Below, in pieces: positions 11,797-50,184 of a DNA stretch of 64,000 bases. Under the pieces are notes generated by a model, which was not told the origin of the DNA, ran no database searches, and saw only the letters and a list, made by a program, of their open reading frames with translations. The translations under genes and the position numbers were made by a program. How positions within the stretch are numbered: position 1 is the first letter of the stretch; each line of letters starts with the position of its first letter. The stretch is from an uncultured Atopobiaceae bacterium (lineage in GTDB: Bacteria > Actinomycetota > Coriobacteriia > Coriobacteriales > Atopobiaceae), in the NCBI GenBank assembly GCA_944320975.1, contig CALUJM010000005.1, positions 62,001-126,000 on the forward strand. Reading direction: 5' to 3'.

Positions 11797-12038
11797 GCCG
11801 ATTGTGTGCAAAACGTTTGATGGACCCGACCTCAGGACATAAAACCTTTTGCACACAACCGCGATTAGGTCCCAAGCCCGCCCGTTCTTCTCGCCAGACG
11901 CCGAGAAGAACGGGCGGGGTGAGCGCGTCAGCCCGAACCGGGCATAAAACGTGTTGCACACAACCGCCCTCTGGGGGCCGTATGACGCCGCCGCCGAAAC
12001 ACGCCGCGGCCGAAAACCCACAATCGAGCTTTTGCGGC
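11797..12038. repeat. Composite TTGTGTGC repeat element, copy R2
   Basis: The 363-bp gap 11709-12071 contains four units: 11797-11823 (+, GATTGTGTGCAAAACGTTTG), 11838-11862 (minus), 11941-11968 (minus) and the short variant 12013-12035 (minus). A perfect 15-bp stem sits between units two and three: CGCCCGTTCTTCTCG at 11879-11893 with its complement at 11902-11916. Unit order +,-,stem,-,short- matches copy R3 read from the opposite strand. Confidence 0.85.
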
Positions 12039-12071: not shown

Positions 12072-13139
12072 TCACCGCTCGTCGATGTGCGCGATGAGCT
12101 TGTTCCTGAGCCTGGCCCTGCGCGTCGCCAGCTTCGCGCCCGGGGCTCGCCACGTGAGGCCAAGCAGTCTCGTGACCGACTTGGCCACCTCGTCCATGAG
12201 GCCCTGCCTTGAGAGCATCGACCTGTCCATCTCGACGACGGGCCTGCCGTCCGCCGCCAGCACGTTGCCCTTTCGCATGTCGTACGCCCTCCTGCTCCGA
12301 ATCTTGTGCTGCGAGCCCTGGTACTCGAGCACGCGGCCGCCGTCCCAGCTCAGGTCGCAGATGAAGGAGTCGATGCCGAAGAGCCGCGCCGCCTCAGCGC
12401 TCAGCCGGACCCGCTCGTTGAGCGCAGCCCGAGGCAGCCCGTAGCCGCCCAGGCGACAGGGAAGCGTGAGCACCATCGAGACAACGGCCTCCTCGGGGGA
12501 CGCAGCATGGTCGCGGATGTGGCCAAGCGCCCGCCGCGCCTGGCCGAGCCCCCACGGGCTGCCCTCTCCGCGCTCCCGCCTCAAGACCTCGAGCCTGTCG
12601 AGGTACTCGGCGATCCTCGCAGCCGACGTCAGCGGAGGGCAGTTGACGAAGCCGGGGTCCTGCGAGGCGCGGGCGAAGTAGCCGCAGAGCTCGTGGCCGT
12701 AAAGGACGAGAAGGTCAAAGTCGAGCTCGCGAGCCATCTGGAGGAACGTCAGCTCCGGGGAGGCGAGCAGTGCGCCGTCCGAGAGCCGGTAGAACGACCC
12801 GATGGGATAGCTTCCCGTAACGAGGCGGCAGTCGGCCGCGGAGACGAAGCGCCTCCCGTTGCGCGAGGAGACGCAGAGCTGCTGCGACGTCGCGGCCAGC
12901 TCCGGCTCGGCGCGGCGCAGGTCCGAGAGCGCCGTCACGTCCACCCGCGACGGGATCTTGGTCGCGCGGGAGCGGGCCGGCATCGAGCCCATGTCAACTG
13001 GCTCCCCCGTCTCGAAGAGCAGCCGCACGAGCAGGGGAGAAGTACCGTTTGCCGGGGGTTTTTCCTGCGCGACCCTCATGCCCACGAGTCGCCACGCCTC
13101 CTGCGCGCTCTCGAAGCCGATGCAGACCGACCCTGCCAT
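12072..13139 (-). CDS. AbiEi/DUF559-like PD-(D/E)xK domain protein, paralog 1
   Basis: 355 aa from ATG 13139 with GAGAGGGG upstream. The middle (GSFYRLSDGALLASPELTFL, then ELCGYF and PLTSAARIAEYLDR) matches the second paralog at 30873-31982 closely. The C-terminal half has the outline of a PD-(D/E)xK nuclease of the Vsr/DUF559 type: Glu in SPEEAV, Asp in FICDLSWD, then LEYQGSQH in place of E-x-DG-x-H, and a basic RRAYDMRKGNVL helix. The lysine of the canonical motif is replaced by Gln, so catalysis is doubtful. Related actinobacterial proteins join AbiEi-type antitoxin regions to such domains. It stands alone, bracketed by R2 and R3. Function is unknown. Confidence 0.7.
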   Translation of the reverse strand: MAGSVCIGFESAQEAWRLVGMRVAQEKPPANGTSPLLVRLLFETGEPVDMGSMPARSRATKIPSRVDVTALSDLRRAEPELAATSQQLCVSSRNGRRFVSAADCRLVTGSYPIGSFYRLSDGALLASPELTFLQMARELDFDLLVLYGHELCGYFARASQDPGFVNCPPLTSAARIAEYLDRLEVLRRERGEGSPWGLGQARRALGHIRDHAASPEEAVVSMVLTLPCRLGGYGLPRAALNERVRLSAEAARLFGIDSFICDLSWDGGRVLEYQGSQHKIRSRRAYDMRKGNVLAADGRPVVEMDRSMLSRQGLMDEVAKSVTRLLGLTWRAPGAKLATRRARLRNKLIAHIDER

Positions 13140-13379: not shown

Positions 13380-13608
13380 GTGCAAAACCTCGGTTGTGAG
13401 TTTTCCGGCCCGCCATGCGCGCCCGATCGCCCGCGGCGAGCCCCAAGAGGCGGTTGTGTGCAAAAGGTTTTATGCCGAGAACCCCGACAGCTCGTTCTTC
13501 TCGCCAAATGGGGCGAGAAGAACGAGCATCCACCGATTGTGGGCAATATCTTTGATGTCAGGCGGCCCCTTGCTCCGGGCGGCATCAAAGTTGTTGCACA
13601 CAACCGCC
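13380..13608. repeat. Composite TTGTGTGC repeat element, copy R3 (inverted relative to R2)
   Basis: The 590-bp gap 13140-13729 holds the short variant at 13381-13404 (+), full units at 13451-13477 (+) and 13533-13559 (+), and one at 13581-13608 (minus). A perfect 16-bp stem lies at 13490-13505 / 13512-13527 (GCTCGTTCTTCTCGCC). Read on the minus strand, the order is identical to R2. The rest of the gap (13140-13379) is AT-richer and shows no gene. Confidence 0.85.
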
Positions 13609-30334: not shown

Positions 30335-30432
30335 CCTCAGGCCAAGGCTCACGGGCAACCTGAGGGTTCATGCTCGACCGCAGCCTCAAGGTTCTTCTCG
30401 CCCCGCATCCCTCGAGCAGCCTCCCCGCCCGC

Positions 30433-30590
30433 GGACCCAAATCCGGATTTGGGTCCGAAAACGAGCGCACCTCTCGACATAAGATGATCTCCACAGGCGA
30501 ATGGCACATTGGGTTGTAAGTTCTTAATCTACTAGAACATTCTCTCTTGCAGACCCCTGCGGTACAGGACCCAAATCCGGATTTGGGTCC
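30433..30590. repeat. Two copies of the 24-bp palindrome, 134 bp apart
   Basis: Perfect palindromes (GGACCCAAATCC and its complement) lie at 30433-30456 and 30567-30590; the second extends to 28 bp with CA/TG. Thirty-two bases into the first unit stands GCGCACCTCTCG, the counterpart of GCGCACTTCTCG at the same offset in the 32-kb array. The remainder of the 538-bp gap 30335-30872 is AT-richer, with a small GTTCT/AGAAC inverted repeat near 30515-30540, and shows no gene. Confidence 0.9.
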
Positions 30591-30837
30591 TGAGGCATCC
30601 CGAAAGGCACCGGCGTCATCGAAGCGACGCATGCGTAGCGCTCGGTCACGCCTGAGAACGCCGAAATCCGCATCGAGCCGCAACCGGTCGGTCCTTCTCT
30701 GCCAACGGTAGGTCCCGGAGAAGCTTTTGATTTAAGTTTCGATCTGCAATCATGGGCCTCCCCGTACCGGCACATCACCTTCCCGCACAGCGTCAGATAA
30801 CTGCAAGTTGCGTGCAAGCATCCCGAATTCAATTTAC

Positions 30838-30873
30838 TTCACAGCAGCTCAACATAGCTGTATTCTTCTCACA
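30838..30873 (+). promoter_or_regulatory. Possible leaderless promoter for paralog 2
   Basis: TTCACA (30838-30843), a 17-bp spacer and TATTCT (30861-30866) end 6 bp before the ATG at 30873. The normal transcription start would fall on or next to the A of the ATG, and there is no ribosome-binding sequence. A leaderless message is therefore likely. Confidence 0.55.
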
Positions 30874-31982
30874 TGGATATCATCGTTTCACATATCACCG
30901 CCCTTGAGGTCCTCCGGAGATGGGACTCGTTCAAGCTCGTCGAGACGTCTGAGGCAGTACGGAATCCCACCCTGCCCAACCGCATGCCCACGGCGCGCGA
31001 GATCAAGGCGAGCCTCGAGCAGCTGCGCCCGCTCTCCGGCGCGACGCTCCCCCTCCACGTGCTCGTGGCATCGACCGCCGGCCGCCACCCGTCGCCCAAA
31101 GCAGTCGCCCATCTGGCGCAGCGAGACCTCCCCGACGGCTCGTTCTTCTCACTTGCCCCGGGCGTCTTCTGCTCGTCCCCCGAGCTCGCCGCGCTGCAGA
31201 TGGCCGAGTACGCGAGCGACCTCGAGCTTCTCATGCTCGTTGACGAGCTCTGCGGTCACTACGGCGTCCAGCCCCGCTCGAGCAAGGGTCTCGTCAAGCG
31301 CCGCGACCCCCTCACCAGCGTCGCCCGCATTTCCTCCTATCTTGACAAGGTGGGAGCCGCGCGATGCGCCGCCAAGCTGAGAAGGGCACTCGAGCGGGCG
31401 CGCGACCGATCCGGGTCGCCGATGGAGAGCCGCTGCGCCCACCGCCTCGAGTTCGAACCGATCCGCGGCGGCTACGGCCTCGAAGTCGTCGCGCTCAACG
31501 ACCCCGTTGCCGTCGAGCGCTCGGACGCGCTGCTCGTGGGCATGTCGACGCGCGTGCGAAAACCAGACATCATCCTGCTCGCTCCGGGGGACGACGCGTA
31601 CGCCCGGACCCCGTTTCGTGGCGTCGCCTTGGACTACCAGAGCGAATACCATCGTGAGGAGGCACAGGAGGCGCGCGACATCAACCGCAGAAACGAACTG
31701 CTCGCCGTCGACGTCAAGGACTACGAGATAGACAAGGAGCACTACGACGACGTCGACTACCTCGACTGGCTCGTATCGCGCATCCGAAGCGACCTCGGCA
31801 TCCCCGAGCCATGCCTCTCCGCCCGCTCACAGGCGACGTGGCGCGACCGTCGCGTGCGGCTGTGCAGGGATCTCGCGGCGGCCGACGGGCTTCACTGGAC
31901 AGGCAGGAAGCGTGGCATAGTCATGGCCGGGACCGCCGACTTCAAGGGGGAATCGCTCCCGAGACTGGACGCTCGGGACTGA
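30873..31982 (+). CDS. AbiEi/DUF559-like PD-(D/E)xK domain protein, paralog 2
   Basis: 369 aa, clear paralog of 12072-13139: GSFFSLAPGVFCSSPELAAL, ELCGHYG and PLTSVARISSYLDK match blocks there in the same order. The C-terminal nuclease-like core shows Glu in SPMESR, Asp in RKPDIILL and LDYQSEYH (canonical E-x-K replaced by D-x-Q), then the basic RDINRRNELLAVD helix and a Tyr/Asp-rich end. The N-terminus (IIVSHITALEVLRRWDS) resembles AbiEi-type antitoxin openings. Catalysis is uncertain, so it may be a DNA-binding regulator instead. It stands alone, flanked by palindrome repeats on both sides, in locally lower GC. Confidence 0.72.
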   Translation: MDIIVSHITALEVLRRWDSFKLVETSEAVRNPTLPNRMPTAREIKASLEQLRPLSGATLPLHVLVASTAGRHPSPKAVAHLAQRDLPDGSFFSLAPGVFCSSPELAALQMAEYASDLELLMLVDELCGHYGVQPRSSKGLVKRRDPLTSVARISSYLDKVGAARCAAKLRRALERARDRSGSPMESRCAHRLEFEPIRGGYGLEVVALNDPVAVERSDALLVGMSTRVRKPDIILLAPGDDAYARTPFRGVALDYQSEYHREEAQEARDINRRNELLAVDVKDYEIDKEHYDDVDYLDWLVSRIRSDLGIPEPCLSARSQATWRDRRVRLCRDLAAADGLHWTGRKRGIVMAGTADFKGESLPRLDARD

Positions 31983-32007
31983 TGGGCGCGGCATCTGGGT
32001 TCCGAGG

Positions 32008-32302
32008 GGACCCAAATCCGGATTTGGGTCCGGGGCGGGGCGCACTTCTCGGGTTGCGGATGCTTTCCCGGGCTGAGAATAACCTTGCAGTTGATGCTTT
32101 TAGTCTATGGAAGGTGTCGGCGGCTGGTGCCCCCTACGAGCCAGGACCCAAATCCGGATTTGGGTCCGGGGCAGCGCGCACTTCTCGGGTTGCGAATGTT
32201 TTCCCAGGCTGAGAATAACCTTGCAGTTGATACTTTTAGTCCTCGAGTGCCTGCTGGCACTCGAGGCCCGTTTGATCAGGACCCAAATCCGGATTTGGGT
32301 CC
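32008..32302. repeat. Array of three 24-bp palindromes at 135-136 bp spacing
   Basis: Perfect palindromes start at 32008, 32144 and 32279. The first two head 98-bp direct repeats (32008-32105 and 32144-32241) that differ at about 6 positions and share GCGCACTTCTCGGGTTGCG, then AATAACCTTGCAGTTGAT. The third palindrome follows an inverted stem CCTCGAGTGC/GCACTCGAGG at 32241-32266. The third palindrome, the stem and the end of unit 2 lie inside the 3' end of hflX. Confidence 0.93.
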
Positions 32303-33600
32303 GAAGCCTCGTCCTCGACGCGATAGGGCTCGAGCGTCGATGCCATGCGGGGGTCGGCCTTGACGGTGGCGAGCAGGCCCTCCTGGACGTAGGTCTCGCG
32401 CATGACCTGGCAGCGCTCGTGGACCATCTTCATGAGCAGGCCCTTCTCGTAGGGCACGAGCACGCTCATCGTGACGCTGCCGCTCGCCGCCTCCTGGGCG
32501 ATGCGGTAGAGCAGGCCCCTGATGCCGGTGCCCTCGCGCGCGGAGATGGCCTGGGCGTCGGGATGGGCGAGAAGGGCCTCGCGCAGCACGTCCGCGTCGA
32601 CGAGGTCGCACTTGTTGAGCACGGTCACGCAGCGGATCTTGTCCGCATCGATGTCGGCGAGCACGGAGCGGACGGCCTCGATCTCGAGCTCGCGATGCGG
32701 GTCGGAGACGTCGACGACGAGCAGGATGAGGTCGGCCGCGCGCACCTCGGCGAGCGTGGACTTGAAGGACTCGACGAGCATGGTCGGGAGCTTCTGGATG
32801 AAGCCGACCGTGTCGGTCACCGTGATCTTGCGCCCCTCGTCGAGGTCGAGCGCGCGCGTCGTGGGGTCGAGCGTGGCGAAGAGCTCGTCTCGGACGTAGA
32901 CGTCGGCGCCCGTGAGGCGGTTGAGCAGCGTGGACTTGCCGGCGTTGGTGTAGCCCACGAGCGCGACGCGATAGACGCCGGAGTCCCAGCGCGCCTTGCT
33001 CTGCACGCCGCGCCTCCGCTCGAGGCGCTCGAGCTCGCGCCGCAGCGTCGAGATGCGCGCCCGCACCAGGCGCCGGTCCACCTCGAGCTGGCTCTCGCCC
33101 TGGCCGAAGCGGCTGCCGATGCCGCCGCGCGTCTGCTCCCCCACCAGGTGGCTCCACATGCCGCGCAGGCGCGGGAGCACGTACTGGAGCTGGGCGAGCT
33201 GCACCTGGAGGCGGCCCTCGTGGGTCTTGGCGTGCACGCCGAAGATGTCGAGGATAAGCGCCGTCCGGTCGATGATCTTGACGGGCTCGCCGACGATCTT
33301 CTCGAGGTTGGCCTGCTGCGAGGGGGTGAGCTCGTCGTCGAAGATGACGACGTCCGCCTCGAGGTTGCGCACGTAGGAGCAGAGCTCCTCGACCTTGCCC
33401 TTGCCGATGAAGGTCTTGGGCACGGGCGCGTCGAGGCGCTGCGTGAGCGTCATCACGACCTCGGCGCCGTCGGTCTCCGCGAGGCGCGCGAGCTCGGCGA
33501 GCGACTCCTCGCACGTCCACTCGGAGCGTCCCAGGTCCACACCGACGAGGATGGCGCGCTCGGGCACCGGTGCGGTCGAATGCGGCTTAAACCTCCCCAT
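32236..33600 (-). CDS. hflX: Ribosome-associated GTPase HflX
   Basis: 454 aa. N-terminal HflX domain (TFIGKGKVEELC), coiled region, then the G domain with GYTNAGKSTLLNRL (G1), DTVGFIQKLP (G3) and NKCDLVD (G4). It splits stalled or stress-inactivated 70S ribosomes. The last ~22 residues (SDPNPDLGPDQTGLECQQAL) are not family sequence: DPNPDLGP is the palindrome and the stop codon TAA comes from the repeat unit CTTTTAGTC. So the array has replaced the native tail. The start overlaps the miaA stop by 14 bp, placing it last in a spoVS-miaB-miaA-hflX operon. Confidence 0.95.
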   Translation of the reverse strand: MGRFKPHSTAPVPERAILVGVDLGRSEWTCEESLAELARLAETDGAEVVMTLTQRLDAPVPKTFIGKGKVEELCSYVRNLEADVVIFDDELTPSQQANLEKIVGEPVKIIDRTALILDIFGVHAKTHEGRLQVQLAQLQYVLPRLRGMWSHLVGEQTRGGIGSRFGQGESQLEVDRRLVRARISTLRRELERLERRRGVQSKARWDSGVYRVALVGYTNAGKSTLLNRLTGADVYVRDELFATLDPTTRALDLDEGRKITVTDTVGFIQKLPTMLVESFKSTLAEVRAADLILLVVDVSDPHRELEIEAVRSVLADIDADKIRCVTVLNKCDLVDADVLREALLAHPDAQAISAREGTGIRGLLYRIAQEAASGSVTMSVLVPYEKGLLMKMVHERCQVMRETYVQEGLLATVKADPRMASTLEPYRVEDEASDPNPDLGPDQTGLECQQALED

Positions 33601-50160: not shown

Positions 50161-50184
50161 GGACCCAAATCCGGATTTGGGTCC
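50161..50184. repeat. 24-bp perfect palindrome, distal copy
   Basis: Exact match to the copies at 30.4-32.3 kb (halves GGACCCAAATCC / GGATTTGGGTCC), extended here to 28 bp by GC/GC. It is isolated, 18 kb from the array, and has no paralogous nuclease gene beside it. Confidence 0.95.

Follow-up and report, generated by a model that had tools for sequence, protein, structure and literature searches.

Why does a nuclease-like gene lie amid copies of one perfect palindrome, while a paralogue of it lies amid repeats of a different sequence? The question is raised by a stretch of 64 000 nucleotides from an uncultured Atopobiaceae bacterium (contig CALUJM010000005.1, positions 62 001 to 126 000; 'the window' means this whole stretch, and coordinates are counted from its first letter). 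The gene (30873..31982, + strand) codes for a 369-aa protein; the palindrome, GGACCCAAATCCGGATTTGGGTCC, is 24 bp long. We saw that in Olsenella-like bacteria copies of this nuclease-like gene are often surrounded by short repeats that differ between copies, some of which are scattered genome-wide. The pairing of gene and repeat and their co-divergence are well supported. On balance, we also think it probable that gene and repeat form a pair of REPIN/RAYT type on a different enzyme fold, in which the protein recognises the repeat and would be responsible for its dispersal.

Two exact copies of GGACCCAAATCCGGATTTGGGTCC lie upstream of the open reading frame (ORF) for the 369-aa protein (30433..30456 and 30567..30590, spacing 134) and three downstream (32008..32031, 32144..32167 and 32279..32302, spacings 136 and 135), just as the preliminary description had placed them. 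They enclose spacers, or cores, on the minus strand: one upstream (30457..30566, 110 nt) and two downstream (32032..32143, 112 nt; 32168..32278, 111 nt). The fifth copy falls inside the last codons of a minus-strand ORF for an HflX-type GTPase (32236-33600) and would be translated as part of its C-terminal tail; the tail of relatives differs. With up to four mismatches allowed, the window has one more site, a sixth exact copy, which is intergenic (50161..50184) and is present in another genome of the genus (G012) as well. The paralogous gene (12072..13139, minus strand, 355 aa) carries instead inverted repeats of the TTGTGTGC family, at 11799..11966 on its 3′ side and at 13450..13608 on its 5′ side, so that the two loci do differ in repeat as had been claimed. 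The paralogy itself was confirmed by 30% identity over 341 columns (E 3e-24).

The palindromes reach beyond the 369-aa gene. In the 2.32-Mb genome to which the window belongs (G000) we counted 53 sites with at most three mismatches, 28 of them exact; they lie outside called genes (the gene caller, a simple codon-usage model, missed the HflX-type ORF that the fifth copy overlaps). The reversed pattern had no site in the same genome at the same threshold; with 53 sites against none, chance origin is excluded.

A repeat of its own is common among members of the family. A single-protein search detected 10 members in G000 and an alignment search 12 matches; the alignment search gave 7-19 matches in every one of 31 genomes of the genus, and the family occurs in 47 of the 94 genera sampled in the class. 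The proposal that each paralogue sits within a private repeat family held for eight of the ten G000 members, which have distinct repeats: both window genes, those on contigs C2, C4 and C6, and three on C1 that have the repeat on a single side. No private repeat was seen in the flanks of C16:1569 or of C5:135296, which is close to the end of a contig. Our sample of the family had 108 unique sequences, 104 of them full-length; for 101 members each flank was available over at least 600 bp. A match of at least 15 bp between the two 700-bp flanks was present in 59 of the 101, vs 2 of 300 control windows; with inverted repeats within one flank added, the counts were 82 of 101 and 19 of 300 (the controls, drawn from the 64-kb sequence, represent one genome and overlap one another). 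Dispersal away from the gene was seen at least for the palindrome, for the TTGTGTGC repeat and for a variant repeat of genome G009.

The link between protein clade and repeat type that had been anticipated for the family was also found. Repeat sharing, defined as shared 9-mers after masking of a common GTTCTTCTCG-like motif, grows with protein identity among the 101 members (Mantel r 0.34 for pairs <90% identical; 0 of 999 permutations as high), from 0.3% of pairs at <25% identity to 17 of 17 pairs at >80%. As same-place orthologues could explain this correlation, syntenic pairs were removed; the non-syntenic pairs alone gave r 0.24, with again 0 of 999 permutations as high, and sharing among them was seen in 1.8% of 3933 pairs at <30% identity, 15% of 217 at 50-60% and 40% of 62 at 60-70%. 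Place alone does not keep the repeat, because syntenic pairs at 50-60% identity share it in only 6% of 49 cases.

Divergence of the repeat can be followed in the clade of the window gene (53-80% identical proteins). The half-site CnCAnnTCCGG is present in the 900-bp flanks of all 10 members (3-12 strand matches per member), and none of 200 control windows has it; 6 of the 10 members also have the full frame, ACnCAnnTCCGGAnnTGnGT. The frame of the half-site is constant and three positions are free, giving the variants ACCCAAATCC (G000, G021), ACCCAGATCC (G009), ACTCATTTCC (G022), ACTCAGTTCC (G029, G008, G015), GCTCAATTCC (G010) and GCACAAATCC (G025). One intergene carries a dispersed array in G000 (L045, 11764-12086) and in G009 an array (L253) with the G009 variant and a shorter spacing. 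Another G000 array (L037) and a G009-variant array (L251) have the right-hand neighbour in common, with ∼1.4 kb extra in G000 on the other side. At other array sites G000 and G021 differ by whole units.

Palindromes are not equally common in genomes without the gene. With at most two mismatches, the two genomes that have an orthologue at ≥80% identity carry 47 (G000) and 29 (G021) sites, vs 3 sites in G017, 1 in G012 and 0 in the remaining 27 genomes, among them eight with clade-mates at 53-61%. For the G009 variant (protein 58% identical), G009 itself gave 11 strand matches, of which four lie elsewhere than at the gene; G021 gave 3, G000 gave 1 and the other 28 genomes none. The TTGTGTGC repeat (at most one mismatch) has 41 matches in G000 and 32 in G017, where members of its clade are 100% and 85% identical to the 355-aa protein; counts go from 9 down to 1 in G011, G021, G002, G010, G009 and G006 and are 0 in 23 genomes. 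Seven of the eight TTGTGTGC-bearing genomes have a clade member at ≥54%, the exception being G021. The match to the 85% orthologue in G017 (L215, G017:C3:6835-7479) covers residues 142-355 only; perhaps this is a decaying gene while its 32 repeat matches remain.

How the repeats are built was seen from palindrome spacings in stretches of G000, G021 and G017. A spacing of 135 bp occurs 31 times, 134 or 136 bp 4 times and 29 bp 25 times; the others are sums of these. Therefore, the unit is a core with, on each side, either a single palindrome or two of them separated by 5 bp. The core is exactly 111 nt long in 31 of 36 cases, and these 31 cores average 55% pairwise identity; as in REPINs, two conserved ends enclose a spacer of fixed length. 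The gapless alignment of cores is partly a matter of choice, as six of the 36 (of other length or near-duplicates) were left out. None of 30 palindrome arrays in the same stretches is inside a called ORF. The gaps holding them (20 tandem, 5 convergent, 5 divergent) resemble the gap mix of the window, and 16 of the 20 arrays in tandem gaps are closer to the 3′ end of the upstream gene (our own count, with some orthologous sites counted twice). On G000 contig C10 a distance of 1.46 kb separates two units (L040, 2014-2230 and 3474-3690) whose cores are 99% alike, perhaps by local duplication.

The gene and its palindromes make up one insertion block (30335..32305, edges approximate) between the convergent 3′ ends of two genes, for an HGSNAT-type acyltransferase and the HflX-type GTPase. 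The block is absent in G012, G001, G008 and G009, where the two neighbours are at most 120 bp apart (BLAST ends); G021 has the block, and G017 has at the same site a gene-less unit with a diverged palindrome. Thus, one intergenic site shows occupied, unit-only and empty alleles. A second G017 unit, 37 kb off, is 89% identical to the first over 200 bp with unrelated flanks; the similarity starts within ∼7 bp of the first palindrome and stops at the last. Judged by sequence comparison, this pair is the clearest sign of a unit copied as such. Cores at different G000 places are 78-81% alike, which suggests older copying. Separately, at the G017 place that corresponds to window position 50161 (L247, G017:C3:42765-47218) ∼4.4 kb of extra DNA lies between flanks matching G000; close to the end of this DNA, 73 bp match the G017 unit at 90%.

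What kind of protein is paired with these repeats? In the predicted model of the 369-aa protein an AbiEi antitoxin-domain fold (residues 1-177) is joined to an EDxHD/Vsr-type nuclease-like catalytic domain (residues 182-310), in agreement with the initial guess of an AbiEi/DUF559-like protein. Predicted fold and conserved residues are thus of the EDxHD nuclease kind, not those of a Y1/HUH tyrosine transposase. The similarity to AbiEi covers its residues 67-195 only; with the domain order given in excerpts of PMC7319586, and a boundary that we placed ourselves, these would be mainly the C-terminal antitoxicity domain rather than the N-terminal DNA-binding domain. The nuclease site is kept in most of the 101 members. 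Members with Thr at position 269 or an otherwise incomplete site include L073-L076, L079, L080, L087 and L091, and in several members with an incomplete E/D/H/D set the inverted repeats are confined to one side.

Profile searches gave little. Neither window protein matched Pfam, none of five family members scanned matched NCBIfam, and both window proteins matched 0 families of PADLOC anti-phage models at E ≤0.1; Pfam matches in some relatives were weak, with AbiEi_1 matched by 1 of 53 sequences (E 0.024). The seven ORFs scanned near the two window genes (HGSNAT acyltransferase, HflX-type GTPase, LysM protein, IPP transferase, DUF3737 and others) had no AbiEii/DUF1814 toxin partner among them.

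Because the anatomy is that of REPINs and the enzyme is different, we propose recognition and cutting of the palindrome by the protein, a mechanism of action that is likely in view of the repeat comparisons and the predicted model. The AbiEi-like and nuclease domains would recognise the palindrome, probably in a hairpin or cruciform form that replication exposes; recognition is suggested by the co-divergence. The EDxHD site, with its predicted fold and conserved residues, would nick or cut at the palindrome. Repair or strand transfer may then copy the unit (palindrome, fixed-length core, palindrome) to another extragenic place, which would keep units alike; that this protein does the copying is suggested by its association with the units. 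Repeats would be kept in step with the gene while it is present and would outlive it once it is lost. One could go further and see here a second, independently evolved REPIN-type system, in which each AbiEi/EDxHD paralogue recognises, copies and homogenises its own repeat, with up to a dozen parallel enzyme-repeat populations per genome and rapidly changing specificity; this fuller version we regard as quite possible, though a little short of probable.

A number of observations weigh against a repeat-copying enzyme. The pairing is incomplete: 19 of the 101 members (vs 281 of the 300 controls) show no match between flanks and no inverted repeat of ≥15 bp, and for four of the eight G000 repeat families the 208 kb (9%) of the genome examined yielded copies at the gene only. 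Presence of repeat and gene is not always matched, either. G021 has 6 TTGTGTGC matches without a clade member; conversely, 8 of 15 genomes with a TTGTGTGC-clade member have no TTGTGTGC match, so that these eight either carry a different form of the repeat or lack it. In G017, with its two near-identical palindrome units, no close cognate gene was detected (best 44%, genome ∼94% complete), and the copy there could have arisen by ectopic recombination. Most cores are diverged and several arrays are at the same place in two species; therefore, spread is rare and old, and selection maintaining the sites could explain much. RNAalifold run on 30 of the 36 cores, without their palindrome ends, gave 0 pairs and hence no shared secondary structure. 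Finally, the Asp at position 269 of the nuclease site is missing in 13 of the 101 members, 12 of which have Thr.

The main rival is a protein that binds DNA at fixed sites: a sequence-specific regulator or chromosome organiser, with the palindromes being immobile operators or architectural sites matched to the protein by selection. AbiEi antitoxins autoregulate via inverted repeats in their promoter (excerpts of PMC7319586), and the N-terminal half of our protein is predicted to be AbiEi-like; an array has switched variant within a shared intergene; the palindromes are kept, more than half of the sites being exact, while the cores drift. A regulator would not be expected from arrays that in 16 of 20 tandem gaps are closer to the upstream gene's 3′ end than to the next promoter, nor from whole units on both flanks of the gene, a G017 unit present at two places and arrays whose length changes by whole units. 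Moreover, the AbiEi similarity would fall mainly outside the DNA-binding domain, given the boundary we placed, and the nuclease site is retained in most members. All in all, we find this rival rather unlikely, while taking it seriously.

The EDxHD domain brings to mind a selfish homing endonuclease gene that cuts the empty intergenic site and spreads by repair, the repeats being recombination ends or debris. It would leave unexplained the dozens of gene-less units elsewhere and the gene-less unit at the very same site in G017, and the insertion lies between two genes, not within an intron; we consider this improbable. The repeats could also be owned by another agent, a RAYT or other transposase encoded elsewhere, and the nuclease genes inserted into them or carried with them. 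The REPIN-like anatomy would fit; however, repeat sequence tracks the nuclease clade across non-syntenic copies, and distinct nuclease clades have distinct repeats where one repeat type would be expected from a single outside agent. An outside owner is, in our opinion, very improbable, and a dedicated pair of nuclease and repeat is the reading we prefer.

Two further motifs are abundant in the 64 kb: GTTCTTCTCG has 20 copies and GTCCTTCTCG has 22 (both strands), with expectations of 1.2 and 1.6 from an order-3 Markov model; examples are at 11884/11902, 13494/13514 and 30391. Nine of the 20 GTTCTTCTCG copies are intergenic, where intergenic DNA makes up 13% of the window, and GTTCTTCTCG is found also within repeat cores and as inverted pairs. 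Perhaps it is an uptake-signal-like or other genome-wide motif, partly due to codon bias.

Compared with known proteins of similar kind, the 369-aa protein stands apart. Type IV antitoxins of the AbiEi kind are matched here in residues 67-195 alone, with a nuclease domain attached, and next to the gene lie those for an acyltransferase and an HflX-type GTPase, not AbiEii/DUF1814 as far as the seven ORFs go. Unlike EDxHD homing endonucleases (I-Bth0305I) and DUF559/MTES_1575 nucleases, the gene is not intron-borne; it has private, partly dispersed repeats, which excerpts of PMC3943268 do not mention for I-Bth0305I. Titles and abstract openings in the open-licence literature had no description of such a nuclease-repeat pairing, which is weak evidence of novelty. 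A role would be offered for a multi-copy Coriobacteriales protein family with few or no Pfam and NCBIfam matches among the proteins scanned, along with many natural enzyme-target pairs of changing specificity; as the half-site frame CnCAnnTCCGG is constant and three positions are free, the recognition code is directly testable.

The closest likeness is to REPIN/RAYT systems (TnpAREP, 'REPtron'). In excerpts of the respective papers, REPINs of Pseudomonas fluorescens have conserved ends around a spacer that is less conserved but constant in length, at 71 or 110 bp (PMC3116915), enzyme and repeat co-evolve (PMC8266576), and repeats in Escherichia coli are fewer where the RAYT gene is missing (PMC8049555). 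Here, too, a dedicated gene sits amid palindromic repeats that appear, by association, to be cognate; several gene-repeat groups are present per genome, and the dispersed extragenic units have two conserved ends and a less conserved spacer of fixed length. The differences are 7-19 family matches per genome in the genus, perfect 24-bp palindromes at 29- and 135-bp spacing in one family, no conserved hairpin found in the 30 aligned cores and, above all, an enzyme predicted to be AbiEi-like with an EDxHD/Vsr-like nuclease domain in place of a Y1/HUH transposase. Dedicated enzyme-repeat pairs in the excerpts cited here rest on Y1/HUH transposases; if our reading is true, the same genomic behaviour in a nuclease with a different fold would suggest that REPIN-like populations arose twice.
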